Shown in pieces: positions 10,464-42,924 of a stretch of 64,000 nt of DNA. The DNA is from Dysidea avara. Its lineage: Eukaryota; Porifera; Demospongiae; Dictyoceratida; Dysideidae. Every line of letters starts with the position of its first letter. Position 1 is the stretch's first letter. Below the pieces are notes generated by a model. That model was given only the letters and a program-made list of their open reading frames with translations, was not told the origin of the DNA and made no database searches. The stretch is from contig NC_089275.1 in the NCBI RefSeq assembly GCF_963678975.1, positions 21,575,977 to 21,639,976 of the forward strand, written 5' to 3'. Made by a program: the position numbers and the translations under genes.

Positions 10464-13400
10464 GTTCCTCATTGACAAGATGTAATGTGAATCGCCAGCA
10501 GTGTTGTAGTCAGATAGTCCTGGACTTTGTTAATCATGCACTATCTACTGCTATTAACAATGAGACAGTAATCAGTCGTTTTACTGCTAGTGCATTTGCT
10601 ACAGCTCAAAATGCCATTGAAGAAACGAGGGATAGAGCCGACGGTATGGAATTACTACAACACCCTGTATATATATGTGATTGTTATGGTTAAAGTGTTT
10701 TGACCAAATCCAGTCATCTTACTGAATGCGCGTATCGTGAACTTCCCCATATGTGACCACATTGCATTATATGTATAATAGTTCACCCTAACCATACCAT
10801 TTTCCGTGCTAATAGCTATAGGGCTTGTCACAAAGTTGGGGCGCACACATAGGGACAGTAGATGCAGGGCTATAGGAGGAAATGGCATTTTATTGCTGTG
10901 ATAAAATGAGTAAGTCAGTGAGGTATGAAGAGCTCTGATGTCATAAGAACTCACACTCAGTTGTATGGTGATCTGTAGTACGTAGACTATGGAGCCATTT
11001 AATGGCACTTAACCACACCATTTATGCTAGAGTACTCTTTATCATCAGAACATCATCTGTACAAAACAACCAGCTTATAAAAGTGGGCGATTTTAAACCT
11101 CAGAGGGCTAGAAATCAGTAATGATTAAACATAATTATGCATGTGCTTATTATTCATAACTGAAGGATAGTTTTATGCTAAGGGTATTTCATTCAGTACA
11201 GCTAGACTGAACAACTTTGCAGAACTATTATTGGTAACCTCTATTTTACATCCACTTGCATACGTATAATATGTTTTACATTGAAATAACACAGTAACTT
11301 GTAAATGATTTTATGTACATTATATGCAAGTTAGCTTATTGGCTAACTAAGTATTTGATTAACCATTATCTGTGCATGGAACTAAAATTCGTGGCTAGGC
11401 CTGTGAAAACCAGGCATAGCTATGGGCACATAAAATTGCCTATACTTTTTCAAAGTTTTATGGGCATCATGACTCACAATATTATTGTGACATTAAAGTA
11501 TGGCTATGCAATTTTCATGTAGTCCTTATTAAACTTTCAATTGGCAGAGTTACAGAATACATGTAACTACTTGCCTGGTTTTCACAGGTCTACATTTGAG
11601 AGAATATGGCACATATTTTATGTATTACTCTTAAGTTATGTTTCAATTATGATCTCTTTGCAGAGATTCTGCGAGATATAACAGAGAATAACATAAGGCC
11701 ACTACTTCTTAGTGTTGTAAATCCTCCTACAACAGAATTTAGTGCAGCAGTTGACAAGGCAACAGCTGATATTGATACTACTCTAAATGGAAGCAAAGTT
11801 GATTTAAAAAACACTGTTGTAACATTCTTTAGAGCTGCAGCAATTGAATATTATAATTCCGCAGTTGAATTTGTAAAACAGAAACTAACATTGGGATCTA
11901 TAACAATATCTCTTCCTACACTTAATTTAACTCAGGAAAGATGTGCAATTGATGGAATACTTAAGCAGATTTATACTCACACTGATGCTACTGATCAGCT
12001 AATAGACTTGCTCCAGAATATTGCCACTGCAGTTAAAGTTATAAAAAAGGTTCATACGAAAATGTCAATATTTGTATAATGAAATAAGTTTGAATGCTAG
12101 TAAGAGATTAGTAGCATAAATTACTGAAACAAGAAAACTGTTTGGAAGAATTAAGTACGTGTTATCTTTACCAATGAGCTTTACTAAGTAAAGTGCATGA
12201 GCTTATTACGTACCTCATTTCTACTCTATTTTGTAAATCTTGGCTTGTGCTCTTCTGTTGTTCATCTTGGCTATATTCCTGGGTATAGCTTATATTAGTC
12301 TATGTTTTTATAGCTCAATTTTTATGGGCTAGTGGAGATGTGTGGGAGTGGTTTAGCTCTATGGCCTTGAAATTGTGTTTAAAACTTTCATAGCAGCTTT
12401 TAAGATTCTGCAAAGGACATGACAAAAATCAACCTTCTAAGGAGTCATCGTTGCTGTTAAAAAAACATCAACTAACAAGAGAAGATGTTCTCCCCAACCA
12501 CCTACAAATTAGGCTGTTTGTGCCCCCATCCCTTGCCAGCTCCTGGATCTGCTACTGCCACTGATCTTTTTCTTTTATATTCTAATGCCCTACCCACTTC
12601 TCTCAACCTTCATCCCTGTGTGGGCACTCATGACATAGCAGCACCACTGAAAAATATTATATTATAGTGGGATGGTTTGAAAAGAGGTTTTAAAGCACTG
12701 CATATGTGGTGAAAATTTGGTGGCTACACACAGTCACAAACTAGCCTTGGCAAGCTACATTCAATCATATACTTTAAATGGTTTGTAAAATTTTTGTTGA
12801 GAAGGTTACATACATATTTGTACCTACTTGTGTACATTTTGTATTTACATACTTCCTTTCCTAGCTTCTTCCTTTGTATGATCAACTGATTGTCAAGCTC
12901 AAGTCATTCAAGTTTTCACAAACATGTATAGATGTATTTATGGACAATTTTCTGTGCCGTTTTTGTTCGAATCAACCAAAGATGTGTCCAGGACGATGCA
13001 GTGAAATCATTGTTGGTTGTCTTTCACCACTTAACCAAGTTGTCGGACAGTTAGATGCCTCCTTTAAGTTGATTGCATGTAAGGAAATGGAATGTACAGT
13101 ATGACCATATGCAGCTGTGGATGGCTAAAATTAGTTATCAGGGTTGAAATCAGATTGGATGGCTTTGGTTTGTACAGTTTAACTACTTGGGATACTTGTC
13201 ATGTATAAGTTAGGGGTATTGCGTTGTAGCTAAACACATTGTGAAAGGTTCTCGCAAAAACTTCAGTACCAACAGGGGCATACATAGGAATCTTGAAAAG
13301 GAGTATCCACTACAACTAAGTGACTGTTGTATTAGAGTAGTTTATATTGCCTGAGTGCTTTATTAGGGTATCTCAATCTTTTCACAAAATCATCATTCAG

Positions 13401-16400
13401 AACAATGCTACAATGTGAAAAACTATTATTTAACTACCATATAGAGGGAAATTTTGGCGGGGGAGAACTATGGTGGCGAATTTGTGATATGCTACAAATT
13501 TGCCAAAGTTTAACCCACCAATTGCTTGTAGCACCTGAGATTAGCATCTTCACAGCTAAATATTTAGCTTCAATTCGCCAAAGTTTATTTTGCCAAAGTT
13601 TCCCTCTATACAGTATTAAAATGTGTCCTGTTCCTTAATAGATTCCAGATTCTGGAAACCTAAGATTTCAATTTCTTAACGTTTCAAGTAGTGTATAAAA
13701 TTGATAGGGGTTTTCTGAAACCCCTGGAAACCCCCTGGGTACACCCTGGTATCAAGATTAAGCTACTGCACTGCATATTCATGCGTATAAATGGTGAATG
13801 TTTACTCCTGTAGGAAGATATTAGCTAATGACCGTTGTCAGATGTGGTCATGGTTACCTTCAGATGGACATATATTAACAACCTTCAATTACTATCCCAG
13901 AGATACATAGCAACACGGTGTATCTAGAGAGAAAGCACAAGTCTGGGCTGCTGTATTCCAAGCAAGGCCTGTACAAATTCATGCCTACTAGTATTTGGGA
14001 TAGCCATTTATGTCATTGGGTCAACCATCCAATGATCTGATTATATTTCAACCCTTAATTATACTCATCAGTGTGCGTATCTATCCATTATATGTATAAA
14101 TACATGTATCAGATTTAGTTTTATTCATGTTGTATTATAGCAATTGTGAAGGGCATGATAGGATCTCAAGAAATAGCTACTAAAGCTGTTGATATTAATC
14201 GTATTCCAATCCTCTATGATAGGATGATTGCATCACTAAAATACTTTGATTTTGCAAACTTTACTTTTATAAAACAGGTATGTGTGTATGATTAAATGGC
14301 TGTCGCTTAATTTTATTGCTGTGTAGTAACTGGTGTTAACTTCTCAACAAACACATCCAAAATTATACAGTACACCATGTGCAATATTGGGTGTGGTCTT
14401 GCAAAACATTGTTATGGCTTTGGATTTCACAATGTTTTACAGGGAAAAAAGTATTAATGATTATTTTAGATTTATTGTAAGAAAACCTTGCCACTGCACA
14501 GAAGAGAAAAAGTTTAATAAGGATTGGTGATACCGTAATCTGCTTTAAAAATTCATATGCAAAAGCTTATTTTCTTGCATGAAATTTGTTTGCAATACAT
14601 AGAGCAGTCATTCATATGCAAAAATATTATTACACGAAAATTTTCACCATTAACTCTTTTTTTGCACAATATGTTTTGCACAAAATAAAGTAGCTAAAGT
14701 ATTTTTATAATTGGCCATATTTCCACATGCAGTCACTGACAAAGTTCCATAAAACAGTTAAAAATTTATAACATTATGTACAGTAGGACCTCCATTATCC
14801 AAACACCTACATTCCAGTTCAATCACAAAAGCATTGAGATAAGTGAATTTGTTCAAATAAATGAGGCCCATTCATTAATATACAGAGTTCCGTTCAACTA
14901 CTCTAATAGAACATACACTTACTTTAATAGAATGTTCAGAATACTCTAATAGAGTAGTCACTTATACTGTTCAGATAATTGAGTGCATAAATAGTGCATG
15001 TATGTGTATACACATGCACTAGTTGTTCATTTGTATTTTTTACTGCTGCTGTGTTGTGTGTATGCGTCCGTGTGTGCGTGCGTGTGTGCGTGCGTGCGTG
15101 CATGCATGCATTGTATCAATCAGACTTCTCACCTTTTATCAACTAGCTTCTTACTTCATGTGGAGTAGAAGTTCCTACTATTCCTACACTACCACCAGTA
15201 ACACTACCACCAATAACACCACCAGTAACACTACCACCAGTAACACTACCACCAGTAACACCACCAGTAACACTACCACCAGTAACACTACCACCAGTAA
15301 CACCACCAGTAACACTACCACCAGTAACACCACCAGTAACACTACCACCAGTAACACTACCACCAGTAACACCACCAGTAACACCACCAGTAACACTACC
15401 ACCAGTAACACTACCACCAGTAACATTACCACCAGTAACACTACCAGTAACATTACCACAAACAACACTACCTCCTATAACATTACCTCCAGTGACTAGA
15501 CCACCTAATCCATTTGGTCGTTTTGGTAAAAGAGACATTAATGGTATTGATGAATATCTCACAAAAAAGTACAAGCGTCAACTCAGTATACCTCAAGTCA
15601 GAATTAACATGTCACTGTTTAATACACTGATAAACATCGATAATTTGGGAAGTGATCAAATAGCAAATGGTAAGTTATGTATTTCATGCTAGTGCATGTG
15701 ATGTTAAATAACATAATTTGTATGCATGTAATGTGTACATGATTGCTATGTGTGTATTTGTTGATTTGTAAATATGCAAAAATAATATGCATGTACAGTA
15801 TACACTGCAACTGACCAGGTCTAAAGAATATATCTTAAAGGATTACCATACATTGTGCTAAGTGTTAAGCATATAAAATTAGAGAAGATCATTATCATTC
15901 ATGCGTAACAGTCAAGATTTCGGACACATGTATGTTTGCAGTTGCTAGATGCAGTATAGTGATCATCTTTTTGTATTATTATGTACTCTATATGTCTTGA
16001 TATACGTGACCCGGTCTGCGAAAAGGGGTCTTATAGCCTTTCCAATTATCCAAGTTTGGCTAATCATAACTCCTAATCTGCTACAGCTATCACCATGTAA
16101 TTGCACTCACATCTAGTGCTATGTTAAGAGTGTGTAGTGACCAAATTGTAGACTTGTACCACATTCACATGTCACGTTATGGGTTACCAAATATATGCAA
16201 TTGAAAAGGCTATAAGACCCCTTTTCGCAGACCGGGTCACTATTATTACAGTGACTCTAAAGTAGACGTTCAGTTATCTACCCTCATATTGAAAATGACT
16301 GTACTATTAGAGTATTTTGTGTAGTGTGTTCTATTAGAGTATTATGTCATAGCTCGGTATAGAAATGTATGGGGCTTCAGTTATTTGTACACTTATCTGA

Positions 16401-16948
16401 ATACTTTTATCATTGCCTGAGAACAATGAGGATTAGATAACCAAAGGGTTCATTGCAATAATACAATATTAAAAATTACTTGTTGAATTTTTCTAGCAAT
16501 TGAGAGATTCTGTAGTCCTAACTATAGTGTGCCTATTTCAAATTTTGAGTTTAAAATAACTGCAGAAAATGGAAATTGTTCTTATGGAATTGATAATGTT
16601 GGAACATACAACAGCACATTCAACAAAAAAGATGTAGTTGATCAAGTAAATGAAAACCCTGCTGGCCATTTTAATTACACTCAACTAATTGATGAAGCAA
16701 AGAACCACACTTATGTGGTAACAGAAGTGTTTGAAGATGGTGAAATCCCTGAGTCTATGTTCTCCATGTTCTTACCTGAAGAGACACTTCCTACCACTAC
16801 CTTTCAAGATGTTCCACCAAAGAAAAGGAAGAAAAATCGAGTCAAGTACATGTGCTATCCAACTCCTCCCAACTATGTTTATGATGCACCCAAACACAGA
16901 AACAGAAAGAAGGTTGATTATGTCTGCTATCCTCGAGATCGTAACTGA
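10464..16948 (+). CDS. Glypican-like protein, copy A (first exon not found)
   Basis: Exons found: 10,464-10,643; 11,664-12,049; 12,865-13,078; 14,141-14,277; 15,147-15,669; 16,497-16,948. All have GT/AG borders and the same phases as copies B and C, giving 631 codons without the signal-peptide exon. Domain marks: CNVNRQQCC (N-terminal CC block); QTCIDVFMDNFLCRFC, then CPGRCSEIIVGCLSPLNQ (Cys-rich core); DINRIPILYDRM; TSCGVE; basic sites GKRD and KKYKRQ; NGNCSYG, then DQVNENPAG (C-terminal core). Glypicans are extracellular proteoglycan cores that bind Wnt, Hedgehog, BMP and FGF ligands; that role is inferred from the family. Two features are odd. Exon 15,147-15,669 contains about 21 TLPPV/TPPV repeats. 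The last exon ends in a basic tail (KKRKKNRVKYMCYP ... RKKVDYVCYPRDRN) with no GPI-type hydrophobic end. AATAAA follows at 17,114. I could not find exon 1 upstream of 10,464. Confidence 0.82.
10644..11663 (+). other. Glypican A intron (about 1.0 kb)
   Basis: Starts GTATGG and ends TTTGCAG. It holds no recognisable element; the ORFs in it (for example 11,313-11,522 plus and 10,655-11,008 minus) show no family resemblance. Confidence 0.7.
13440..13610. mobile_element. MITE, 171 bp, with TATAGAGGGAAA ends
   Basis: It starts TATAGAGGGAAATTTTGGCG and ends with its imperfect reverse complement (GCCAAAGTTTCCCTCTATA). It lies in glypican A intron 13,079-14,140. TA at both ends suggests a TA target. 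Confidence 0.85.
14550..14695. repeat. AT-rich repeat related to the insertion at 9,655-9,845
   Basis: It shares the segments TTCATATGCAAAA and AGAGCAGTCATTCAT with the AT-rich foldback nested in the element at 9,219-10,021. It lies in the glypican A intron 14,278-15,146. Confidence 0.5.
14784..14960. mobile_element. Pogo/Tigger-like terminus fragment
   Basis: ACAGTAGGACCTCCATTATC at 14,784 resembles the CAGTNGGACCTC ends typical of pogo/Tigger-type elements. It is followed by decayed sequence and by two copies of the dispersed CTCTAATAGA motif (reverse strand). Confidence 0.5.
15186..15497 (+). repeat. Coding minisatellite: Thr-Leu-Pro-Pro-Val repeats in glypican A
   Basis: Units of 15 bp (TLPPV) and 12 bp (TPPV) alternate about 21 times, all multiples of three, so the exon stays open. 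They sit between the conserved TSCG cysteine and the basic GKR/KYKR site. The composition (Thr and Pro) suits mucin-type O-glycosylation, which is inference. Copies B and C have only a short PPP linker or nothing here. Confidence 0.92.
16003..16241. mobile_element. GTGACC-family MITE, second subfamily (copy in glypican A intron)
   Basis: The ends TACGTGACCCGGTCTGCGAA and inverted TTCGCAGACCGGGTCACTA are nearly perfect. The arms continue as AAGGGGTCTTATAGCCTTTCC, and a related copy is at 34,995-35,224. It lies in the intron 15,670-16,496. Confidence 0.85.
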
Positions 16949-17113
16949 TAAATGTTGAACAACAAAATTGACATGTTAGATGGTATATACAAATGCATGC
17001 ACTAGATATGTCAATGCTCAACATTGCATTGTGCCAGTAATTTTCCTGATTGTATAATATTATAAAGTATTAGTTTGTATAGCATTTCAATTACTGCACT
17101 ATTGATTGTTAAC

Positions 17114-17119
17114 AATAAA
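17114..17119 (+). promoter_or_regulatory. Possible polyadenylation signal of glypican A
   Basis: AATAAA lies about 165 bases after the stop codon of glypican A. Confidence 0.45.
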
Positions 17120-18285
17120 CATTCTAAGACTAATATTATAATAGTTCAAATGCACACACCTGTTCTCCCTTTATCTATGTGTAAGGAATTGATGTAAGCT
17201 TGCACTGTTCTTGTTATTTCTGTACCTTTATTTACTATATAACAAACATTGATAATTTGGTGGTCCTGCTACATAACTACAAAAGCTCAAATTTCATATG
17301 GAGTTTCCTAGGCTGAAACTCATTCCCTACACTCCTGGTTGACGGATCATATTAGGCATACAAGACTGTGTCATACAGTGGCTAAAAGCTATTCTTTTAG
17401 TAAAGCTCTTTTCACTATAGTAGCACTCAGAATTGACACATCTGAATGATGTGTTCACACTCAGGGGGAGTACTTGCAGAATTTTCATACCTGGTTATAA
17501 ACCTAACAACTAATCTGTAATTGCTACTATCATTCAGAATTACATTATATATACAGTACTGTATAAGACCCTACTAATTGAAAACTGATGAGAGGAAATA
17601 TAATTATTAAATTTTAGTCTTCTGTCATGGAATATTGGCAGTGAGTGAATCTCAATAGCCAACGTATTAATAGGCTTGAGCCTATTATGCTTTTGAAATT
17701 GCCTATTATGCTATTAAGTAATGATCCAAAATTTCCCCTATTATGCTCCAATTATGCCCAGTTGTGTCCCATTATGCTCCCAATATGCTATTATAATTGA
17801 TTTGATGGCTCTATTAATGCATCTGTGAACGTTCTATTAGGTATATCTATCTTTAACTAGTCTTTCCTTCACAAGTAACTATAAATCTGATTTTTGTTGT
17901 GTCTGCACACTATCCCATTCTGTACCTTACAAAATATGCACAGTTTTAACTTCTTTGATAACCAATACACAAAAAGTGTGCTTATTGTGCTGGCATTATG
18001 TTCAATACTTTACCTACCTATTATACCCCAAATTAATAATTATGCTGGCATAAACGGTGCAGGCTTATGTATTAAACTTTAAAACACAACAAAATTAAGA
18101 TGCATTGATAAATTTCCACTGATGTGACATCTTCACATTGCATGTGTGTTTGTCAACATAAACATTAACCTATAAAACCTTTTTGTTAAGTTATTTACTT
18201 AAATTGGGAAAATGATACAGATTTTACAACAGAAGTTATCATCCACTAGTACACATAGCATGATAGCTATAGAGTGCAAGTGAAC

Positions 18286-20537: not shown

Positions 20538-20750
20538 ACACTTCTTTTTGTATTTGTATACTGCAAAGCCGGCCTATGGCTGGCTTTGTGGCTTTTTTAA
20601 TCCATGTGTTTTTTTCTTTACCACAGGAAGAAGAAAAGAACTTGAAGAAGATTTTTAATACTTCAATTATTTTTGATTTTATTAGTAATTATACAAATTA
20701 TATACATATATTTATTACATGCCCATTATTCCCCACAGGATATTATTTTG

Positions 20751-23700
20751 CAGCTGATCTCTCTACTGGGTGACTTGAAATGTAGCTGAACTATATACAG
20801 GATGGTTTCTTATTGTAGCTGAACTCTCTACAAGGTGACCTCTTCTAGCTGGTCTCTCTACAGGGTGATTTGTTTCTAGCTGAACTCTCTACAGGTGATT
20901 TGTTTGTAGCTAAACTCTCTACATGGTGGTTTCTTTGTACCTGAACTCTCTACATGATGGTTTCTTTGTAGCTGAACTCTCTATAAGGTGACTTTGTCTA
21001 GCTGAACTCTCTACAGGGTGATTTTTTTGTAGCTGAGCTCTCTATAGGGTGATTTGTTTGCAGTTGAACTCTCTACTTGGTGGTTTCTTTGTAGCTGAAC
21101 TCTCTACATGATGGTTTCTTTGTAGCTGAACTCTCTACAAGGTAACTTCTTCTCTACAGGGTGATTTGTTGTAGTTGAACTCTCTACTTGGTGATTTCTT
21201 TGTAGCTGAACTCTCTACATGATAGTTTCTTTGTAGCTGAACTCTCTACAAGGTGACTTCTTCCAGGTGATCTCTCTACTGGGTGATTTGTTTCTAGCTG
21301 AACTCTCTACAGGTGATTTGTTTGCAGCTAAACTCTCTACTTGGTGGTTTCTTTGTAGCTGAACTCTCTACATGATGGTTTCTTTGTAGCTGAACTCTCT
21401 ACAAGGTAACTTCTTCTCTACAGGGTGATTTGTTGTAGTTGAATTCTCTACAGGATGGTTTGTTTGAGGCTGAACTCTCTACATGGCGGTTTCTTTGTAG
21501 CTGAACTCTCTACAGAGTGCAGCTGAACTCTGTACATGATGGTTTCTTTGTAACTGATCATGAACACTCTACAAGGTGACTTCTTCTAGCTGATCTTTCT
21601 ACAGGGTGAATTGTTTGTAGCTGACCTATCTACAAGGTAACTTCTTCTAGCTGATTTCTCTAAAGGGTGATTTGTTTGTAGCTGAACTCTCTACATGATG
21701 GTTTCTTTGTTGCTGAACTCTCTACAAGGTGACTTCTTCTAGCTGATCCCTCTACAGGGGGATTTGTTTGTAGCTGAACTCTCTACAGGTGATTTATTTA
21801 CAGCTGAACTCTTTATGTGGTGGTTTCTTTGTAGCTGAACTCTCTACAAGGTAACTTCTTCTAGCTGATCTCTCTACAGAGAGATTTGTTTGTAGCTGAA
21901 CTCTCTACAGGCGATTTGTTTGCAGTTGAACTCTCTACATGTTGGTTTCTTTGTAGCTGAACTCTCTACAAGGTAACTTCTTCTCTACAGGGTGATTTAT
22001 TGTAGTTGAATTCTCTACAGGGTGGTTTGTTTGAGGCTGAACTTTCTACATGGCGGTTTCTTTGTAGCTGAACTCTCTACAGAGTGATTTGTTTGCAGCT
22101 GAACTCTCTACATGATGGTTTCTTTGTAACTGATCATGTACACTCTACAACGTGACTTCTTCTAGCTGATCTTTCTACAGGGTGAATTGTTTGTAGCTGA
22201 ACTATCTACAAGGTAACTTCTTCTAGCTGATCTCTCTACAGGGTGATTTGTTTGTAGCTGATCTCTCTACAAGTTGATTTGTGTGTAGCTGATCTTTCTG
22301 CAGGTTGATTTTTTAGCCGATCTCACTACAGGGTAATTTGTTTGTAGCTGAACACTCTATAAGGTGATTTGTTTGTAGCTGATCTCTTTGCAGGTTGATT
22401 TGTTTTAGCTGAACTCTCTACAGGGTGATTTGCTTGTAGCTGAACTCCTTACATTGTGTCTAGTTTTTAGCTAATGTCTCTACAGGGTGGTTTTTTTTTA
22501 GCTAAACTCTCTACAGGGTGATTTGTTTCTAGCTTATCTCTCTACAGGTTGATTTGTTTGTAGCTGATCTCTCTACAGGGTACTTTGTTTATAGCTGACC
22601 TCTCTTCAGGGTGATTTGTTTCTAGCTGATCACTCTACAGGGTGATTTGCTTGTAGTTGAACTCCTTACATTGTGTCTAGTTTCTATCTGATCTCTCTAC
22701 AGGGTGATTTGTTTGTAGCTGATCTCTCTACAAGTTGATTTGTGTGTAGCTGATCTCTCTGTAGGTTGATGTATTTGTAGCCGATCTCTCTACAGGGTAA
22801 TTTGTTTGTAGCTGAACTCTCTATAAGGTGATTTGTTTGTAGCTGAACTCCTTACATTGTGTCTAGTTTCTAGCTGATGTCTCTACAGGTTGATTTGTTT
22901 GTAGCTGAACTCTCTACAGGGTGATTTGCTTGTAGCTGAACTCCTTACATTGTGTGTAGTTTCTAGCTGATCTCTCTACAGGGTGATTTGTTTGTAGCTG
23001 ATCTCTCTACAAATTGATTTGTGTGTAGCTGATCTCTCTGCAGGTTGATTTGTTTGTAGCCGATCTCTCTACAGGGTAATTTGTTTGTAGCTGAACTCTC
23101 TATAAGGTGATTTGTTTGTAGCTGATCTTTCTGCAGGTTGATTTGTTTTAGCTGAACTCTCTACAGGGTGATTGCTTGTAGCTGAACTCCTTACATTGTG
23201 TCTAGTTTCTAGCTGATCTCTCTACAGGATGATTTGTTTGTAGCTGATCTCTATACAAGTTGATTTGTGTGTAGCTGATCTCTCTGCAGGTTGATTTGTT
23301 TGTAGCCAATTTCTCTACCAGGTAATTTGTTTGTAACTGAACTCTCTATAAGGTGATTTGTTTGTAGCTGATCTCTCTGCAAGTTGATTTGTTTTAGCTG
23401 AACTCTCTACAGGGTGATTGCTTGTAGCTGAACTCCTTGCATTGTGTCTAGTTCTAGCTGATGTCTCTACAGGGTGATTTGCTTGTAGCTGAACTCTCTA
23501 CAGGCTGATTTGTTTCTAGCTTATCTCTCTACAGGTTGATTTGTGTGTAACTGATCTCTCTACAAGCTGATTTGTTTGTAGCTGCAGGTTGAATTGTTTC
23601 CAGCTGATCTCTCTACAAGTTGATTTGTTTATTGCTGATTGCTCTAAAGGTTGATTTGTTTGCAGCTGAACTCTCTGCAAAGTGTTTTGTTTGTAGTTGA

Positions 23701-24590
23701 TCTCTCTACAATGTGATTTTTTTGTAACTGACCTCTCTACAGGGTGATTTTTTGCAGCTGACCTCTCTTCAGGGTGATTTGTTTCTAGCTGATCGCTCTA
23801 CAGGGTGATTTGCTTGTAGCTGAACTCCTTACACTGTGTCTAGTTTCTAGCTGATCTCTCTACAGGGTAATTTGTTTGTAGCTGATCACTCTACAAGTTG
23901 ATTTTTGTGTAGCTGATCTTTCTGCAGGTTGATTTGTTTGTAGCCGATCTCTCTACAGGGTAATTTGTTTGTAGTTGAACTCTCTATAAGGTGATTTGTT
24001 TGTAGCTTATCTCTCTGCAGGTTGATTTGTTATAGCTGAACTCTCTACAGGGTGATTGCTTGTAGCTGAACTCCTTACATTGTGTCTAGTTTCTAGCTGA
24101 TGTCTCTACAGGGTGATTTTTTGTAGTTGAACTCTCTACAGAGTTATTTGTTTCTAGCTTATCTCTCAACAGGTTGATTTGTGTGTAACTGATCTCTCTA
24201 CAAGCTGATTTGTATGTAGCTGATCTCTCTGCAGGTTGATTTGTTTCTAGCTGATCTCTCTACAAGTTGATTTGTTTGTTGTTGAACTCTCTGCAAAGTG
24301 TTTTGTTTGTAGCTGATCTCTCTACAGGGTAATTTGTTTGTAGCTGAACTCTCTCCACAGTGACTTGTGTGTAGCTGAATTCTCTAGAGAGTGGCTTAAT
24401 TGTAGCTGAATTCTCTACATGGTACATGACTTGTTTATAGCTGAACTCTCTTCAGTGTGACTTGTAATGTTCTGAATCTCTACAGTGATATATTTGTAGC
24501 TTAACTCTCCACAGCGTGACTTGCTTCTTGCTGAACTGTGTATAAGATTAACTGTTTGCAGCTGAACTCCCTACAGAATAACTTGCAATG
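20751..24590. repeat. 3.8-kb satellite with a 31-bp unit
   Basis: More than 100 head-to-tail variants of a 31-bp unit of the type TGTAGCTGAACTCTCTACAG plus GTGATTTGTT. Subtypes occur in ordered blocks. A CTCCTTACATTGTGTCTAG variant recurs near 22,444, 22,660, 22,846, 22,940, 23,178, 23,417, 23,822 and 24,068, which indicates higher-order repeats of roughly 200-240 bp. Units carry short self-complementary words (CTGTAGAG/CTCTACAG). There is no ORF. Confidence 0.95.
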
Positions 24591-27163: not shown

Positions 27164-27172
27164 ACTACAGTT

Positions 27173-27783: not shown

Positions 27784-30700
27784 ATGTTGCAGAAGTATTC
27801 CATGTTGCAGTTGCTTGTTTTAGTTTCCTTATCGGCTGGTGCATTTTGCGCGGTCACTTCCCAGGACTGCGATGATACTGGTGCACGCCTCTCCGCGGTC
27901 TCCCCACTTATTGCTAGTTTATTTTATCTGCAAGACGGTAAGCTGCTTAAATATGGTTATACATACGTATACCTATGTACATGTGCTACTTCTAGGCTAG
28001 CTACGGTAGCTAGGACTTTCGAGCCTATTTGCTAGCAACTTGATTGACTCGATCTACATGTACGATGATGAGAGACGTCTTATTTTGTTAAAACACAACA
28101 TAAGTACTTACAGGGGTCTAGACTCAGGGGTACCATGCACTCAGTGATACCCACAGGGTGGTCAAGTAAGGAGCCCTGGCAAGACTTGCACTATTTGAGT
28201 ACAATACAAAAATAATTATAGCATGCAGAAAATTAGGCCAACCAATAGATTCTAGCCCCTAAATTCAAAAAAATCCTGTATGAGCAGGAGACTGCAATGC
28301 AAGCAGCCTGCTCAAACAGGGATCTTAGTAGTCTTCGTCACTTCACAAGCATTGACCACTTTGTCAACTGATTATGTATGACATAAAATGGCCTAAACTA
28401 GCTATAGGAAACAAAACTACGTACTGGCACCAGTATGTAGCTATTAGGTAGCTATACACTGTAGAGTGACATGATTATTAAAAAATAGATTAAAACAGTG
28501 CAGTTAAACTGCATGTTATTCCATACATAGCAACAGTTCACGGCTACTTTTTGTTGATCTTTAAAAGATTGTTTTATTTTTGGTCGTACGCAGGCTCTTC
28601 TCTGACAAAATGTGTTGTAAATGGTCCGCAATGCTGCCGACAAGATGTCATCAACCTGATAAGTCATTCATTAATTTCGGCTGTTCACAACAGTTCAGCA
28701 AGTTTTACTGTCAGTGGGTTTGCTGATGCACAGGAAGCAGTTGATAAGCTGAGGAATGAAACCAATGGTAGGTACAGCTAGAGTACTTTCTGAGTGAACT
28801 TATCTGTATCTGTAGCAATACTGATCGACATAACAGTGAACAATATAAGGCCTCTTCTACTCAGCGCTGTACCATCACCAACAACAGATTTCATTAATGC
28901 AGTCAATGTGGCAATGGTGGAATTTACTAATGCTCTAACTGGTAGCAGAGTGGATCTTAAAAGCACCATTTCTAAATACTTTAGAGCTGTGGCAACATAT
29001 TATTTGGACAAGGCACTAAGTTCTTTCTCTCTGTTTGGATTCAGAATAACAATAAGACTTAGTAGCTACCAGAAAAACTGTGCGATTCAAGCGATATTCA
29101 ACCAAATATATACCTACACAGATGGTGCTGCTGAGATGGTAGACTTGCTTCAGAACACTGCAACTGCAATAGCAGTCATAAAACAGGTGCAGTTTAATTG
29201 CAATAAGTATGCTACTGTATTATGTATATCATCATAATCATGATTTATCAATACAAATCTGCTTTTGTAGCTACCTCCACAGTTTGACAAACTCATTGCT
29301 AATGTCAAGTCATTTAGATTCTCAGAAACATGTCTAGAAGTCTTTATAACAAATTTGTTGTGTCCATTTTGTGTTAATCAACCATGGATGTGTCCAGGGC
29401 GTTGTAATGAGATATTAGTCGGTTGTCTTTCTCCTCTCAATCAAGCGATTATGCAACTGGATACTTCTGTCAGACTGATACTGTGTAAGGAAATAGTATT
29501 AATTTTTTGATGTAGCTACTGTAATGTTTCATTAGTGTATACTTTTGCAGTACTGTAAATTGGATTATTTTATTATGACATAAATTTTTCCAGTAACTTT
29601 GTAAGTGTATTGTACGTAAGTGTGTAAAAGCTTTTGTGACTTGGATTCCATAATAAAGACATGTACATTTACAATTATATAGCTTGGAATATATAGAGGT
29701 ACATGCTTAACATTTAACTGCATGTTATATATTTCTACACATGCTGGCAAACATAATCAACTAATGTATTGTCTGAAATTGTAGCAATAGTAAAGAGTCT
29801 GGCTGGATCTCCTGGCAAAGTTACCGATCATGTTAATCTGAATCGTATACCAATTTTGTATAATAAGATGGTAGCATCACTGAAAGACTTTGATTTTGTA
29901 AACACTGATTTTATTAAACAGGTACATAATATGCAAACTTGCAGTTGTTGTATCTTGACAACACATGTACTCTGGTATGGTCATGTGGTGTTATATAGTA
30001 ATGCAATTATTTATATATGAAAAACTTTTTTTGAACTCCCAACAAACATACCTGCAGTTGCATGCTGCTGTTTAACTTATCTGTATACTTGAACATTCCA
30101 TACCTAATGACTCCATGTATTCACAAGCTTTAAGCTTTTTCATAGGTCCCTAGTGGGATAGTATTCCATACCTAATGAAATTGTTCTTTAAAGTATATAT
30201 TATGCACGTACATTAATTGTAACCGGTAGAAAACTATTTTGTGCAGTAAATAACAAGGTTCACTGTCATTGTTGTTGTTTAGCTTCTCACTACATGTGGA
30301 GTAAGCATTCCTACTCCCCCACCAATAAGACTACCATCATGGCTTGGTAGAAGAGACCTAGATGATTATGCCAAGGAGCATAAACGTGCACTAAACATCC
30401 CCAATGTTCAAATTGACCAGTCACTATTTGGAACACTAGAAAGAGACTTTGGTTCACTGGGGAGTGATGAAATATCAAGTGGTAAGTAACTATACATATC
30501 ACGCACTCTATCTTTTTGTCTTTTTTCCAGCAATGCAGAAATTTTGTAGCCCAGAGTTTAGTGTACCAGTGTCAGGATTTGACTTCAAAATAACTGCAGA
30601 AAATGGAATGTGTTCTTATGGACTTGGAAATGTTGGGACATACAACAGCACATTCACTCAGAGGGATGTAGTGGACCAAGCATATGACAATCCTGCTGGT

Positions 30701-31234
30701 TACTACAACTACACTGAACTGATCAATCAAGCCAAGAATCAAACTTATGTAATAACCGACTTGTTTAGTAACACTGACATTCCAAAATCAGTATTCTCTG
30801 TGTTTCTGCCTAATGAAGGATTTCCTACCAATGACTTTTTGTCTGCACCCCCTCCAGTTAATCCTAATCCAGTTATTACGACATCATCCACTGTATATTC
30901 ATCAAGTTCAATTTCATTAACATCTGTCATGGGTCCAGTTCAGACTAGTCTCATTGCCACCCAACCAGCCTCAACCATCATCCATTCGATTATTCCCAGT
31001 CCAAACATATCCAGATTAACTGAGCTGGTTTCAGAAGTACCTGTGACAAGATTGACCGAGCCAATGTCATCTCCTGTGGTCACCCAAATCCTAGCAAATC
31101 CTTCAATCGTAGTTGCTACAACTCCAACTAATGAACTGCAAATTCAACCTGGAAGTAGTTCAGCAGTGACATCATCACATTTTGTGTTTTATACAATAGT
31201 ATACAGCATAGCCGTGTTGTTGTCATCATTGTAG
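27784..31234 (+). CDS. Glypican-like protein, copy B (complete, GPI-anchored type)
   Basis: Seven exons: 27,784-27,937; 28,594-28,767; 28,816-29,186; 29,271-29,484; 29,785-29,921; 30,283-30,481; 30,531-31,234. They join in frame to 650 residues. The start gives a signal peptide (MLQKYSMLQLLVLVSLSAG); an inner ATG at 27,802 is also possible. Marks: DC ... KCVVNGPQCC (residues about 25-65); QKNCAIQ (about 208); ETCLEVF, LLCPFC and CPGRCNEILVGCLSPLNQ (about 245-290); LNRIPILYNKM; TTCGVS; dibasic sites GRRD and EHKRA; NGMCSYG and DQAYDNPAGYYNYTEL. From DC onward there are 14 cysteines, as in glypicans. A Ser/Thr/Pro linker (about residues 520-630) leads to the hydrophobic end FVFYTIVYSIAVLLSSL, as expected for GPI attachment. 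The linker has no Ser-Gly pair for heparan sulfate. Location at the outer cell surface is inferred. Confidence 0.88.
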
Positions 31235-33041: not shown

Positions 33042-33391
33042 ATGTTACTGCCATTCTTGCTCATTGCAGTATCGTCCTTACTGACCACAGCGTCGTGCAC
33101 AGTGACCCCTGAAGACTGTGAAAGCGTGGCCGAAAGGTTCACCATACCGCGCAATTTCCGCCAAATTTTTGAGATTCAAGATGGTGAGTTTAGCTCCTGG
33201 GTGCAAGATTAACATTACATACATGACTGAATAGTGATATTGTGATGTCATAGATTCTCTACTCCCCATGTGTTTGATGTGTGAAATTCTTGAAATACTT
33301 AAGGGGGACTGACGTTAATTAGCTAGTACTGTATGCTGTATATGCTAGCTGCTTTCAGGCAGGACTTTCATATCATTGCCGTGGAATGTAG

Positions 33392-33471
<80 letters not shown>

Positions 33472-36400
33472 TGTGTGTCTGTGTGTCTGTGTGTGTGTGT
33501 GTGTGTCTGTGTGTGTCTGTGTGTGTGTGTGTGTCTGTGTGTGTGTGTGTGTGACATTAAGGCTGCAGCATATATTAAGTTGCTGTCAGAATTTCAGTGT
33601 TGGTCACTGTAAAGCTCTAATAATAAAAAATAACAGTGTGGTTTATACTGTTACTTGCTGAAGTTAACCACAGAAGCCTTGTGAACAGAAGATTTGCAAT
33701 TTAACATGTTGCTTTGGTCCTATCGACACTTTTATAAACTCACTGTTTCAAAGTGTGGGATAGAAACGTACATACCAGCTGAAACATGTATGGGCCTACA
33801 TGGTATAAGCCATGATACCCTACTCTTACAGTATTTCACTACACAATACCTTACTTGTGTTTTATACAGTACCAGTAAATTCAATAGTATCAGGACTACT
33901 TCTACATCAGTGTGTTTAGAGTGTTTGCTTGGAATAAGTTTCTCTTTATAAGCAATAATGCAGCAGCTTTACTTTTCTAGTTGAGTTCTATTAAAAACTT
34001 ATATAGTTCTTTAATTAGCAGAAGAATTAGAGTGGAAGTTTATAGTGTATTGAATGTAATAGCTTACTCAGTGCTATACAGGTGTATGGTAGTGCATCAC
34101 ATTTTGCTAGGCTGTTGCCATCCTATATAACATGATATGTAGTTGTGACTCCCTCTTTTTTAATTAAGTACAACCCTCTACTGACATGTATGCATGTCAA
34201 TACCGGTATAACTCTACCAGTATAACTACATTGTACCACTGCACTTGTTACCGCAACAACATTTTTAGGACAGTTGGCAATAATGACATGATGGTGCTAC
34301 CTCTGATGCTGTTCACTTCGGAATATCTAGCCAACTGTATAGTGTATTCTTAAAATAAGTGAAAATTATTTAAATTTTGTTGATGCTTTTTGTATTAATA
34401 CAAGTTTATTATGGCTTATCATGTAGTAGTTATGTATGCGTACAGTTCTGCTGTGACATATCTTGGATGATGACACTGCTCCAATGGTTATCACTGGTTA
34501 TCAATAGCTGAGTGTAAGGATTCTATCCCAATAGCATTCCTCATTTACACTACAGTTAACTGCGTTGATATTCATTCACACATAGCAGGCTACATAACTA
34601 TCAGACACATGGCTCTCCTTAGCTAACAGAAACAGATGAAAGCTCCATACTATTATTTCAAGTTGTGTCTGATAATATATGCATCCAACACACACACACA
34701 CACACACACACATACATACGTAACTTCGTTTATTATGTAAAACTCACACACATAAAATATTGCATGTACATGGTTGCATAATATGCAATAAATATATATA
34801 TTAGGTTCTTCACTGTCTACTTGCCCTATCAATGGACAGCAATGCTGTAGTCCACTACTCATTCAACTATTTACTAGATCAATTGATTCTTTTATTAACA
34901 CTGACACATTTGGGTTTGCAGCCAGTGGGTTAGCCAATGCCGAAGATGCTGTTGATCAGTTGAGAAATGAGACAGATGGTGAGTGTTGTTTGTTATACGT
35001 AATCGGGTCTGCGACAAAGGGTCTTGCAGCCTTTCCAAATTCTCAACTTTGACTAATCATATCTCCTTAAGCTTTTATTTAACCTATCACTTTCATATTA
35101 CAGCAAACAATAGTGGTATGTTAGGGGTACATTGTGACCAAAGTACCATATTCACAAGGTAAGATATGGGTTGCCAAATACATGCAATTGGAAAGGCTGT
35201 AAGATCCCTTTTCGCAGACATGTTTAGCGCAATGGTATACATACATTATGGCATAGAAGATATTTTGTATTTTATGATTTAAATCTTTAGCTGGCTATGT
35301 ACCAGTCAATCAGCCTGTGATAATAAACTGGTTAGTATTAATTCCATTCATCCTCATTGCTCAAAATATTTTGTAAGTCTGCATGGTGCCCACATTGTTG
35401 TGGAGAGTGAGCATGAGATAGCTAAGTTGGTTAGACTATATCTTTAAGTAGACATTTATACAAACAACACTTGTCAACTACAAATTTTAGCTGTGATAAT
35501 AACCCATGGAATGTATATAGATAAATCATAGTGTATCATACACTGCCTTGCCTTTCTATACTGGTAGAACAAACTTTTAGAGTAGCTACATACTTGTTGA
35601 GTGTTGAAGATAGGTTAAGCTTCAGCAATATTTGTTGCAGTTGTTATGTACTTTAATTGGTTGGTAAGTGTATCTCACATTTATTGGGATGCAGTCATGG
35701 ACTTGTTGTTTGTATAAGCCAATAATTGCATGTGTGCTACATGAAATAAACCTCATTAGTGTTGATCTGCTGTACACATTGAACCACATGGGAGAGTACA
35801 GGGTGTTACAGTATACAATGGCCCACAATGGTTTCTGCTTGCATTACATGCAGTTAGCTACCTAATATGGACACACTTGTAACTGCAATTATTAATGAAA
35901 TTAAGATTTATATACTTAATCAAGACTTAGTCAAAAGATAATTGATTTGATAAGGTAAATCATGGTTACTATTTACCTTACAGCAAACTAAATATGTGGT
36001 AGAAAAGTGTATTTTTCTGTGAATGTGGTAAACAAATCACAACATCACTCTGTTGGCTGTAAATGCAAGTTTGAGGATTGCAAATCTTAGTGGTTATAAC
36101 CTAGATAGTTTACATCATGAAGCTTATGATCTAGCATGCACCATTGAAATGATGTTCTTTGTTTTATCTCTCCTTGTATGTACAACGAAATATAAGCCAG
36201 GTGAGTTAGCTTAACAGAATGGTCCAATATTTGTCTATAAGCTTGTGACAAAAGCAGTGCCTGTATCAGGCCTGGCATGTACACTTGTAGAAGATATAAT
36301 ATTCTGTTTGCAATGAAGTATTATAGCAACATTGCCACTTAACTGTAAATGAAGTTATAAATGCATATTACATTTTGCATGTGTCAAGGAGCACATCACG

Positions 36401-37252
36401 TTTAATATATACATGCACAAAAAGAATGTTTTTACCCATTGCTTTGGTTAGGAGTATGTATGTATGTGCTTGCACTTGCATTTACCAATCATATAGTGTA
36501 TATATATAGGTACTGGTATTAAACTATGTACCATGAGGGCGATGAGGCGTTGTGAGTATTTACAGACTCAGCACTTGACCTAACCCATCCTAATGGCAGT
36601 TTTATACTAACTGACAAATTACATAATTTATGTGACTGGATTTTGGAACAATGATCTAAATCGTACATTAGAAGTTTCAAAGAATTCAAGTCAGCATAAC
36701 TTTCCAAGGACTGCAAGCACACATGAAATTTACACAATAGATGCATCAATTTATTACCTTTCAGGCCACTTCCAGTACTTGTAACTGCTTGTAGAGTCTC
36801 CCACCAAATACGATAGAAAATCTGAGCAGTTGAACAAGTAAAGTAGTATCACCAGTGCTCATAAAGGGGTGGGGGGTGGTGGGATGGGCAAGAGATAGAC
36901 TTCAAAATGGAGGCAGACCACGATTGGAGTCCAGACACACAATTACAAGGCTGTGCTGGCTTCTTAGTGGCTGATATGTAGCAAGATCAACAGAACAAAC
37001 ATCTGGTCAACATTGTCAGGCCATCCACCAGTAAACCACTGACTCTTGCCAAGCCAGGCCCTCCACAAGGTCAGAAACCACCATTCGAGCTCTCCACACC
37101 ACCTAGAAAAGATGTCTGTTAAAACCAGCCTCAAGTAGTTTGAATAGTACTGAGGATCAAAACTATAGTAGTATGATAGTGTAGCTATCCACTGGTGGTG
37201 TTAGTTTGATTTTGCCTGACGTGCAATTTGGATCGGTTTTGTAAAATCTGGT

Positions 37253-37288
<36 letters not shown>

Positions 37289-40200
37289 CATAGTCCAGGT
37301 AATTGCATACCTTATTCATTCCAGCTCTGCTATCCACAGACCAACTCATAGTACCTTCCTTTGCAATTGACACAACTTCTGGGGGAAGTTTTAGGAGATG
37401 AATCCATTTTTCCACATGCATATTATAATTGGCCATTACGTAAAAAATACGCTAGACTAAAATGCACAAAACAGTATGGATGAAATGGTTATGTTCAAGA
37501 TGCTGTGTAAACTTGCTATATTATATCGTTTAAGATGTATTTCCCTATGGTACAGTAATACGTACATAGACAGCCATATAGTGTTCCCTGCAGAAAAAGA
37601 AGACGACACAAAAGAGATATGCAAGATTCATTCATACATAGGTGTATAGGGTAATAATTCTGACATATATTATGTAAGTCATTCTTGTTTCTTTACACAG
37701 CTATAATAATGGATATCACTGAGAATACTGTTAGGCCTCTTCTCCTTAGTGCAGTTTCACCTCCTACAGATAATTTCACTGCTGCAGTTGATACAACAGT
37801 GTCTGGAATTACAGCAGCATTGAATGGCAACAGTGTTGACCTAAAGCAGACACTGTACAACTATGTCAGAGCTGTAGCAACCCAACGTTTAGATGAAGTG
37901 TTGGGTTCTGTTGATCTTGGATTTGGATTTAAAATAGTGATAACTCTCACTGAAGAACAGAAAGAATGTGCTGTTCAGTTTGGTTTTAATCATCTATACA
38001 ACAACACAGATGCAGCTGCTGAGTTAGTTAGCCTGCTTCAAAATATTTCTACAGCAGTTGGAGTCATCAAACAGGTATATGAAACACTGTGAGTGCTTTG
38101 TTAGAGTAACTGAACATTCTGTTAGAGTGTAGAATGTATTGATTTTTATTGTGGATTTTATCCCTATACTTCATTTCAGCAACCAGATTTCAAGACAATG
38201 ATTCCCTACCCCCATTCTTCCTACCACTTATGAGATATTATTCCCCGCCCCCACTCTTTCTACCACTTATGAGTAAATATCTCATAAGTGGTAGGAAGAG
38301 TGGGGACGGGGAATCATTGGTCTTGAAATCTAGTTGCTGAAATGAAGCAGGGATAAAATCCACAATAAAAATCAAATGAATACATTCTACACTCTAACAG
38401 AATGTTCAGTTACTCTAACAAAGCACTCACAGTGTTTCAAACAAACATGTTAAAGTTCTATCTTTAATAATGTCTATCAAAGGCTACAAATGGCTCATGT
38501 GTACATGTTCATAGGTTATATACAAAGGTTCTGCTGTTATATTTCAACCCTATCTATTCTTTATCACATAACACATTTTTAAACTCTGTGTACATCACAT
38601 GAGCACCATATTATAATAGTGTAGTAATTAATGATGGCAAAATTGTCCATCCCTCACTGTACAACCAAGTCAATTGCAAATGTATATTACAATCAATTGT
38701 GCTCGAAAAATAAAATCTAGGTAATGGACTTAAAATTGACAGATACCAATACTCATAATAGTGGCACCAATATCATAACAGTAATAGTCCTGGTATATGC
38801 ATTCAGCATATTGGATAGAGATGTGCAATTTCGTGCAGCCACAGTAATTATGCTTTACACACAAATAGGTACATGATGTTGTATCTCATCACCACAATCT
38901 ATCAGGTTTTTTTTGTTAGAAACGCCCAAAAATATTGAATGTTGGCATTGGTATAGTGCTAATGACTTTGGTTATTGGTGTGTTCTTTGTTGTTACCGGT
39001 TCATTTCTGTACGATACTTATACCTGCTGTATGTTATGTACATTTTTCAGCTTCCTCCCATATTTGATGAACTACTTGCAAATTTCAAAGAGTTTAGATT
39101 TTCTAAGACATGTGTTGATGTGCTTACCTCAAACTTTTTATGTCCCATGTGTGTCAATCAACCACTGATGTGTCCTGGACGATGTAGTGAAATAGTCATT
39201 GGTTGTCTGTCCCCACTCAACCAAGCTGTTGTGCAGTTGGATACTTCTCTCAGACTGATCTTCTGTAAGGAATGTAGCCATAAAATAACAACTTTGTGTA
39301 CATGCACGCACGCACACACACACACACACTCACAGCAAAGCCTACTGCACCCACAACTATTAGTGAATCAGCACTGGGATGCTGTGCACCACTAAGGTGC
39401 TTGAGCCTTTTGCACTAACACTGCTAAGTGAGAAAGGACAGTTGGGAATTTACTTTCCCAGTAAACACCAGGTACCCATTAACATTACAGCTGGGTGGGT
39501 TGCTTCCCCAGATGACACCAGGCCACCAGGCCCCCAATATATAGCTGGGTAGACTAGAGCAATAAAACGCACACACACATACACACACTGTTAAAATTTA
39601 GGTGTAGTCATAACACTTTTTAGGGTATCCACTTGCATGCATGCTTAATATAAATCCCTTCAGGTGTTAAAATGGTGCTGAACAGGTGATGTGATGACAC
39701 CTAGAGAGTGTTACAGAGGTGTTGTAATAAGTGTAAAACCAGGGTGTGAAGGTGTTACAAGGGGTGTAAATCCAGAGTGTTAGGAGCTATAAGATGTAGG
39801 GTGTTATAGTGGCAGACTAGACATCATTTTAATATCCAAAGGGGATGGAGCCACTTTCATCCCTTCATTTAACTTGATGGTTTATTCAGGAAACACTTGT
39901 GACCTGTGAAATACAGTAAATAATAATTCAACAGGATAAGAAATACACTAACTTGTTGCTTTCTACACTTGATGTAAGTTGCAGTATGTATTTATAACCT
40001 AACTACAAGGAAACTTTTAGACGTGGGATTCCATTCTGAGAAACACAAGAAACACCCCTTTGACACCCAAAACACCAACTATAAAACCTCTAAAGGTGTT
40101 TATTATTTTCAGAGGTGTCATAACAGATTTTTAGAAAAATATAGGTGTTGTGGTAGCATCTAAATTTTAAACAGTGCACACACACACACACACATGCATC

Positions 40201-42924
40201 TCACAACGGTAATAACTCATACACAAACAACTTATAATTTACATACAAATCATAATACTATCTCTTCATGAAGATTAATATTTTATTTTTAGCGATTATC
40301 AAAGCACTTGCTGGTTTTCCTGACAGAAGTACAGACTTTGTTGATGTTAACCGCATTCCAATACTATATGATAGTCTGTCAGATGCTTTACAAGAATTCG
40401 ATTATGAAGATCCTGACCTAATCAGAAATGTAAGAGATGTGATATTCACTGCATTGTAACTAGTTCTATGTTATATATATTACGTGTACGTAAGCCAATT
40501 GTGTATTTTCAGATACATATAAGTATTATGCTTGAATGCTGTATACCAATGAATTGTACATTATGTATTCTATACAAAGCTGATGGTGCATACTAAAACT
40601 GGATACACTAATAGAATATTAACTGATATCAACAAGGCCAGGCTCATAATGTACTATTGCATAAAACTTGAGTCTCTCTTTCACGTATGTAGTAATGCTG
40701 TTAGAACAAAAAGAACTGTAGAAAACCTCATTGAGCACTGTATGAGTAATTTATAGCTAAATCATATGTACTTTAGTCAGTAACTATGTGCAGCATACAT
40801 AGGGGAGGGGATAATGGGGGTGGGTATGTTGCTCCCTTTTCCCTCACAGTGAGATCTTACAGATATTATATTTTTGGAGCTGAAATGGATGTACTCTAAT
40901 AAAACTTTCACAAGCTCTTTATTGATGTATATTATGTACAATTCTGACCTAGTGTACACATTTCATTCATACTGCATACATTAATGGTTTACCCCTTACA
41001 GATTCTCCAAACATGTGACATACAATTGTCACAATTTTTTGGGAAAAGGAGTATGAATGAGTATCACCAAATGAAGAACAAACGTGATATCACTATCCCT
41101 GAAGTCAAGATTAATCAGTCACTGTTTGAAAACTTGGAAGAATACTTTAGTTCAGTAGCAGGGGATGAGCTTACCAGTGGTATGTATATCAATACAAAAT
41201 GATTGGTATAATATTATACAGTACAGTAGTACTGTATGTTAGGGATCATGGAAGTTTGGGTTTTTCTGGCCAAAAGTATCACTCACAAATCAGCCTCACA
41301 ATGCCATCCTGGTGCCTTGGCAGTACTGGTTAGGTATAACCAAGCCCAAAATTGCCTTCAGTATGACCCTAATGCTTCCAATAGATTGCTGCAAAACTTT
41401 TTAAAAATTTATTTATTGGAATTTTCTATTGACTGCCTGACTGATCCCTTCAGACAAGCATAACTCGATGATGGCTAAGGCTATGGGCTTAAATATTCAC
41501 TGTTGATGTCGCTTCAGCCCTTTTGGCATACTGCAGTATGTACAATGAGTGCATCATGGTCTTACCTTTGTCCTATTTCTTTCTGCTGACAGCCGAAGGT
41601 GTCAATTCGTGGTAGCATACGTGATAGCTTCCCAACGTTTGTAAACAGGAATTGTCCGTATTTTCGTTGGCTAGTGGATTGAATGCAGAAGCACTTCTCC
41701 CACTGTTCTTCATTTGTAACATGGTGAAATAGGCTGAGCATAACTGAAAACAAAGTATAATGGCCACTTTACTTTCAGGTCAGTAATTGATATATAGTTA
41801 GGGCTAGAGATGAGCCTATTTTGCTTTTTTCCACATATTTTTCTTTATAGCAATTCTTATTTTTCTTGCTCAATATTCTGTTCAAAATTTCTGACCATCA
41901 ATAAAAATTAATTGCAGTATCTCAAGCTTACAAGCATGTGTGACTGCTGTAATAGAATATTTCATAGATAGTGACTGCTCTTTTAGAGTATCTCAATCTC
42001 TAGTCACCATTCCTATATAATTATGAGCATATGGCGTGAATGTTCTATTAGAGTATCTCGATCTTTTTCATACAAAATGTGCTATGTTCGAGGCTAGGTT
42101 GCCATTCCTTGGTGCCAATATTTTCCACCTGTTACACTAACTCTGGCACCATCCTTTCTTTTGATGTAGTATGCATGAGTTCAATAGCCACAAAAAGTAA
42201 ACAAATATGTATGAGGAAAATTTTAAAAGTTTAAGTTTGATTAGTGATCCTAGAAAAAAAAGTAGACTGAATCAGGGATTAAATGTCCACTAAAATTGTC
42301 TGCAGGTGTAGGCAACCTCCCTTGTTTCCTTAGGCAACCTTAGTAATAATTACAAACAAACACTACAAAAATGTCACTGTATGTTATAAGATTTTCTCTT
42401 TATATGCAGCGATAGAAGAATTATGTAGCCCCAATTTCAGCATACCAGTGTCGACATTTGAAATGAAAATAGTTTCAGAAAATGGAATGTGTTCTTATGG
42501 AGTTGGAAATGTTGGATCATATAACAACACCTTCACCAGGACTGATGTGCTTGATCAAGCATATAACAATCCTGCTGGCTACTACAACTACACTGAACTG
42601 ATTGATCAAGCTAACACTCAGACTTATGTGCTAACAAGATTGTTTGATAAAACTGATATTCCTGAATCTGTGTTTTCAGTATTTCTTCCTGATGAGACAC
42701 TTCCCACTACTAATTTCTTGTTTGTTAAACCACCAACTAACCCTAACCCACCTCCTCTTCCACCCCCGATGATCACTGGTCCAAGCTCAAGTCCAACCGA
42801 TTCAGATGTCACTCTGAGCAGTAGTGATGATTCAGCTGATAGTAGAGCATCTCTGTTGTCTTATTCCCTGATGGTTGTTTGGGGATGTGGTATAGCTGGT
42901 CTGCTATATTCTGACATGATATAA
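33042..42924 (+). CDS. Glypican-like protein, copy C (complete, GPI-anchored type)
   Basis: Seven exons: 33,042-33,183; 34,805-34,978; 37,701-38,074; 39,051-39,264; 40,293-40,429; 41,002-41,179; 42,410-42,924. They join in frame to 577 residues, close to the usual glypican length (550-600). The signal peptide is MLLPFLLIAVSSLLTTASC, with a GCCACC context before the ATG. Marks: EDCESV and TCPINGQQCC; EEQKECAVQ; KTCVDVL, LCPMC and CPGRCSEIVIGCLSPLNQ (about 245-290); VNRIPILYDSL; QTCD; basic sites GKRS and KNKRD; NGMCSYG and DQAYNNPAGYYNYTEL. A Pro/Ser/Asp linker of about 60 residues without Ser-Gly precedes the hydrophobic end (LLSYSLMVVWGCGIAGLLYS). Exon order, phases and the exon lengths 174, 214 and 137 equal those of copy B, so the two are tandem duplicates. 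The introns are much longer and full of repeats. Confidence 0.88.
33394..33553. repeat. (GT)n microsatellite, about 160 bp
   Basis: Long GT run with CT interruptions in its 3' half, in the first intron of glypican C. The many reading frames through it are not genes. Confidence 0.97.
34688..34712. repeat. (CA)n microsatellite
   Basis: About 12 CA units, 93 bases upstream of the second exon of glypican C. Confidence 0.95.
34995..35224. mobile_element. GTGACC-family MITE, second subfamily (copy 2)
   Basis: It starts ATACGTAATCGGGTCTGCGA, and GGTCTTGCAGCCTTTCC is mirrored by GGAAAGGCTGTAAGATCCC before TTCGCAGACATG. It is related to 16,003-16,241 and begins 17 bases after the exon 34,805-34,978. 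Confidence 0.75.
35225..36628 (+). other. Repeat-poor part of the glypican C second intron
   Basis: No gene or clear element. Short ORFs on both strands (for example 35,668-35,865 plus) lack motifs. Confidence 0.55.
36629..37256. mobile_element. Larger GTGACC-terminus element, copy 2 (reverse orientation)
   Basis: The ends TTATGTGACTGGATTTTGG and GTAAAATCTGGTCAC, and interior words such as CCACTTCCAGTACTTGTA and TAGCTATCCACTGGTGGTG, match the inverse of 9,219-10,021. It lacks the AT-rich insertion seen there. A CA/TA microsatellite (37,254-37,290) follows directly. Confidence 0.75.
38080..38439. mobile_element. 360-bp foldback at the 5' end of a glypican C intron
   Basis: The arms of about 150 bases (TGAAACACTGTGAGTGCTTT and its inverse at 38,439) are nearly perfect. 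The left arm begins at base 6 of the intron, directly after GTATA. The arms include two copies of the dispersed GTTAGAGT motif. Confidence 0.9.
39586..40176. mobile_element. CACTGTTAAAA element inserted in a CA microsatellite
   Basis: The ends CACTGTTAAAATTTAGGTG and inverted (ATCTAAATTTTAAACAGTG) enclose about 590 bp with several GGTGTTA words. (CA)n lies on both sides (39,571-39,588 and 40,175-40,193), as expected if a microsatellite was the target. Confidence 0.7.
41232..42345. mobile_element. TTAGGGATCA-family element, copy 1 (in the last glypican C intron)
   Basis: It starts TTAGGGATCATGGAAGT and shares long segments with 53,808-54,602: GGTGCCTTGGCAGTA, CTTCAGCCC, TTTGTAACAT and AAACAAAG(T/C)ATA. 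It ends around GATTAAATGTCCAC. Two copies of the dispersed CTATTAGAGTATCTC motif lie inside (41,940-42,065). The small minus-strand ORFs are not recognisable. Confidence 0.6.

Follow-up and report, generated by a model that had tools for sequence, protein, structure and literature searches.

The tandem array and its exon architecture

Three genes on the same strand, copies A, B, and C, lie in the window (the whole 64,000-nucleotide stretch of DNA analyzed, C4:21575977-21639976), which belongs to a 550.8 Mb genome of 108 contigs. As the sequence-only reading had proposed, the three genes share an exon architecture, with the first exon of A falling outside the window (Table 1). Every intron read in the three copies has GT-AG borders; the phases run 1,1,0,1,0,1 in both B and C, and the five introns that A has within the window follow 1,0,1,0,1. 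The joined frames contain no stops, versus 31-71 in the two other frames, one base standing in for the missing exon 1 in the count for A. Exon 4 (214 nt) and exon 5 (137 nt) have the same length in all three copies, exon 2 measures 180, 174, and 174 nt in A, B, and C, and 14 ectodomain cysteines are invariant; the identical exon lengths and matching cysteines claimed at the outset thus hold. Comparing the reading frames of the window with one another revealed exon-by-exon likeness far above chance (e.g., 4.9e-48 for exon 7 of A/B, 1.5e-42 for exon 3 of B/C, and 2.4e-34 for exon 4 of A/B).

Six of the seven exons of copy A are within the window, and exon 1 sits 3.7-3.9 kb before the window start, separated from exon 2 by an intron of ~14.2 kb. 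This exon was assigned to A because its phase fits and its DNA is 82% identical to exon 1 of an upstream copy, Z. The proline/threonine linker encoded by the repeat in exon 6 of A lies between the twelfth cysteine and a GKR motif and, in alignments, is absent from the other joined copies.

Table 1. Glypican-like genes and their features. Positions are those of the window unless preceded by the contig, C4.
Feature	Position	Strand	Remarks
Copy A, exons 2-7	10464-10643, 11664-12049, 12865-13078, 14141-14277, 15147-15669, 16497-16948 (span 10464..16948)	+	Joined frame open; GT-AG introns; phases match those of B and C
Copy A, exon 1 (signal peptide)	C4:21572124-21572244, outside the window	+	Assigned on phase and DNA likeness to exon 1 of Z
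Copy B, seven exons	27784-27937, 28594-28767, 28816-29186, 29271-29484, 29785-29921, 30283-30481, 30531-31234 (span 27784..31234)	+	Signal peptide and hydrophobic C-terminal tail
Copy C, seven exons	33042-33183, 34805-34978, 37701-38074, 39051-39264, 40293-40429, 41002-41179, 42410-42924 (span 33042..42924)	+	Signal peptide and hydrophobic C-terminal tail
Copy B, signal-peptide exon	27784-27937	+	Within the window
Copy C, signal-peptide exon	33042-33183	+	Within the window
Exon 4 of A, cysteine-rich motif	12865..13078	+	CxxC..CPGRC..GCL; dN/dS in A/Z is 0.09, below that of the other six exons
Exon 4 of B, cysteine-rich motif	29271..29484	+	
Exon 4 of C, cysteine-rich motif	39051..39264	+	
Tandem repeat in exon 6 of A	15186..15493	+	Found by TRF; codes for the proline/threonine linker (PPVTLPPVT)
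Copy Y	C4:21529132-21544877	+	Complete
Remnant X	Between Y and Z on C4	+	Only exons 6 and 7 found; exon 6 frame hits stops
Copy Z	C4:21554524-21568836	+	Complete
M1	C4, ~0.45 Mb from the array	-	Four exon matches, not joined
M2	C4:21093399-21101984, ~0.45 Mb from the array	-	Joined; intron phases same as the family

A genome-wide query with joined B returned at least 35 exon matches, all on contig C4. On the + strand, the order is Y, X, Z, A, B, C, i.e., five intact genes and one broken remnant, accompanied by two more divergent relatives, M1 and M2. Exon searches at E below 0.05, covering all but 99 bases between 21516000 and 21659900, found no further copies in that interval. A nine-protein tree clusters Y, Z, A, B, and C together (support 94), with M2 adjoining them (100); A and Z form a pair (100), and B and C branch with weaker support (86 and 69). 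The local expansion put forward from the three window genes is therefore larger than claimed, extending to Y, X, and Z upstream and to M1 and M2 ~0.45 Mb away on the same contig.

The window also holds a 31-bp minisatellite of ~125 copies between A and B (20747-24576), where AT skew is strong, a 30/60-bp minisatellite (2149-2681) that overlaps a 227-aa open frame (2129-2812), and two copies, 99% identical, of a 155-bp unit (2875-3185). Ten further reading frames of the window, the 227-aa frame included, had no Pfam match at E 0.01.

Kinship with glypicans

The three joined proteins have a single Pfam family in common, PF01153 (Glypican), which each of them matches at a score below the curated cut-off of 26.4 bits: 12.6 for B, 23.6 for C (E 2.7e-5), and 14.1 for A, those of A and C being obtained without their C-terminal parts. 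Joined proteins were needed, as single-exon Pfam scans of 10 reading frames gave no Glypican match, and the window copies are not among the matches listed for a whole-genome PF01153 search. The relative M2 is over the cut-off (28.6 bits), and all eight of its PDB matches up to E 1 are glypicans.

A profile built from five of the six joined members (A left out) placed glypican-3 at the top (E 1.8e-4), collinear over profile positions 29-275, and still matched influenza HA2 from E 0.005. When the profile was restricted to A, B, and C, HA2 came first (0.16) and glypican-3 reached only 0.37; we take the HA2 matches as helix-driven noise. Against the genome's own glypicans, hhalign in its default local mode gave a probability of 49% and E 1.7e-4. 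Both the N-terminal part and the cysteine-rich motif outscored 30 of 30 column shuffles, whereas the region past the motif was not told apart from shuffled columns (13.4 versus a shuffle maximum of 20.0). Exon-level structure models were of low confidence (pLDDT of 57.0 for exon 4 and 35.7 for exon 7), and a single fold search with the exon 4 model returned no glypican and no useful match.

Three canonical glypicans above the Pfam cut-off, Gly1, Gly2, and Gly3, are present in the same genome, two of them 41 kb apart. Gly1 shares with the family introns 1 and 2, both phase 1, at matching places, as well as a phase-0 intron located 4 residues ahead of the twelfth cysteine; three introns of the family are absent from Gly1, and one of Gly1 is absent from the family. 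The intron series of Gly2 and Gly3 is also 1,1,0. Fourteen columns are all-cysteine in A, B, C, Y, and Z and 13 of these in M2, which has another cysteine nearby; they align with cysteines of Gly1-3, with shifts at the fifth (Gly1), twelfth (Gly2), and thirteenth (Gly3). A dibasic GKR follows the twelfth cysteine in Gly1, A, C, Y, Z, and M2, replaced by GRR in B, and a second dibasic site is listed for four of the six joined members; the script used found no GKR pattern in Gly2 or Gly3. Identity between the family and Gly1 is 17-19%. According to passages of PMC10930589, glypicans carry two to five heparan sulfate (HS) chains and a GPI anchor, and their core has 14 cysteines that are highly conserved, a C-lobe susceptible to furin, and a disordered linker. 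Reverse-transcriptase frames that look LINE-like by eye lie beside Gly2 (L005:100-1758) and beside M1 (C4:21055641-21057998, - strand).

Intron positions and phases, the profile comparisons of the N-terminal part and of the cysteine-rich motif, and the PDB matches of M2 thus support common descent with canonical glypicans for these two regions; this support does not extend to the C-lobe. The glypican identity initially proposed survives as homology in that sense. The suggested check of joined B and C against PF01153 gave the right family, shared by all three copies, at scores under its threshold, and their C-lobe is not detectable by profile. That undetectable lobe could also mean that the copies form a separate cysteine-rich family, in which a Frizzled-like domain resembles that of glypicans and the C-terminal half has another origin. 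Glypican N-lobes have been likened to Frizzled-type domains (in passages of PMC10930589), and the cysteine-rich region of Gly3 (L006) itself weakly matches the Frizzled domain (E 0.0018). We consider a separate family rather unlikely: Gly1 has in common with the copies not just three intron positions and phases but also 14 cysteines, including three C-terminal ones, and the GKR site, and the Pfam match of copy C extends beyond the cysteine-rich motif, up to position 435 of the 555 in the profile.

Tails, codon constraint, and age

No Ser-Gly was found after the last ectodomain cysteine in any of the six joined members (A, B, C, Y, Z, and M2), whereas the same script identified SGSG in Gly1 and Gly2 and one SG in Gly3. 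Two Ser-Gly do occur in the tail of remnant X, and such sites may thus have existed in an ancestor or sister; copy Y carries a single SG, with acidic surroundings, close to the border of exons 6 and 7. A hydrophobic C-terminus is present in B, C, Y, and M2 (12-residue hydrophobicity maximum of 2.05-2.97) and missing from A and Z (-0.47), whose tail is basic and cysteine-bearing, with no hydrophobic stretch.

The SG dipeptides of X and Y would fit ordinary glypican proteoglycans, with chains attached at unseen sites or through alternative last exons, in which case the array would provide extra HS-bearing co-receptors. The glypican homology described above (M2, the five-member profile, and the PDB matches) is also compatible with such proteins, as are six clusters of GT64 exons of the HS-polymerase type in the genome. 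The script that detects SGSG in Gly1 and Gly2 finds no SG after the last ectodomain cysteine in the six members, and the reading frame closes in exon 7 in all six, which makes ordinary proteoglycans improbable.

Codons are constrained in each of the five pairs compared, M2 not included. In A/Z, dN/dS is 0.32 overall and below 1 in every exon; B/C has a dN/dS of 0.22 with a dS of 1.7. In the four pairs other than A/Z, overall dS is 1.25-1.91, which marks the copies as old. Exon 7 of A (16497-16948) and of Z (C4:21568391-21568836) are 97% identical, with a dS of 0.10 versus 0.17-0.37 in the other exons, and the DNA past exon 7 is not alignable between the two; a gene conversion limited to this exon is possible.

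Such a conversion, together with the variable tails and an array of five intact genes and a remnant, would fit diversifying recognition proteins, directed at self or microbe and kept variable on a glypican scaffold by duplication and gene conversion. The age of the other four pairs and the constraint seen in every exon of A/Z argue against this explanation, which we hold to be quite improbable. Decay of duplicates with little function describes X, with its missing exons and interrupted frame, but is very improbable for A, B, C, Y, Z, and M2, which have open frames and GT-AG borders, the pairs compared also being under codon constraint.

Proposed function and place among glypicans

With modest confidence, we read the copies as an old, constrained, locally expanded glypican-derived family of core proteins without HS, which would bind lipidated ligands and occur in anchored and secreted forms. 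The fold of A, B, and C would be a glypican core, and a furin-like protease would cleave the dibasic GKR or GRR, as it does in glypicans. The copies would bear no HS and would work solely via the protein core, the likeliest mode being the binding of Wnts or other lipid-modified ligands. Those with an anchor (B, C, Y, and M2) would keep the ligand at the cell surface, and those lacking the tail (A and Z) would serve as soluble carriers or decoys. Glypicans bind the lipid of Wnts. The C-terminal half of the Wnt profile matched 11 places in the genome, on C4, C13, and C15, which, with the GT64 exons, indicates that both the ligands and the HS enzymes are present. In Drosophila, Dlp without HS retains most functions, according to PMC10796981. 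A signaling co-receptor role for A, B, and C, as the sequence-only reading suggested, is plausible; that reading made no mention of the lack of the usual HS sites in the tails. A bolder version has a low probability: a natural HS-free glypican lineage, expanded as anchored and secreted core carriers for equally duplicated Wnts, with the core alone picking the ligand.

Two observations concern the genome at large. Wnt matches fall in close groups, as if tandemly duplicated (C13:5319186-5351163, C4:39070841-39087118, and C15:7774667-7815182). Two intronless open frames of 391 and 386 aa (C9:10648999 and C8:23417155) score 31.7 and 29.3 bits, above the threshold of the Pfam family Innexin, are the sole innexin matches among the genome matches listed, and would be of interest if the animal is a sponge.

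Like known glypicans (PF01153; GPC1-6, Dally, and Dally-like), the family combines a signal peptide, a 14-cysteine core, a dibasic site in the C-terminal half, a hydrophobic tail in four members, and three introns common with canonical glypicans of the same genome. It differs in tails without Ser-Gly, a C-lobe that is not detectable, the lack of a hydrophobic tail in A and Z, and the low identity and partly different introns relative to Gly1. The array is a known gene family in divergent and expanded form rather than a system of a new kind.

Human GPC3, GPC4, GPC5, and GPC6 bear HS. Linked glypican genes have precedents: reference titles in PMC7570499 name a human GPC3-GPC4 gene cluster and the co-location of GPC6 with GPC5. 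These are gene pairs, unlike five genes with a remnant and two linked copies. A tandem pair as unexpected in itself was rejected on these titles, and the claim that a tandem glypican array is surprising is weak, given the human pairs and the canonical pair 41 kb apart in this genome. Passages of PMC6162966 already present a demosponge glypican, and those of PMC3789837 report that GPC6/gpn-1 was not found in Trichoplax. Searches of open-licence PubMed Central turned up no paper on such an array or on natural HS-free glypicans. The Dlp form lacking HS sites (PMC10796981) likewise has a glypican core working without HS, but it is an engineered allele, not a natural lineage.

The function of the glypican core without sugar chains has been approached via engineered alleles. 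A constrained lineage that naturally lacks chain sites, within a genome that also encodes canonical glypicans bearing them, would offer an evolutionary readout of that function and make a direct test possible.
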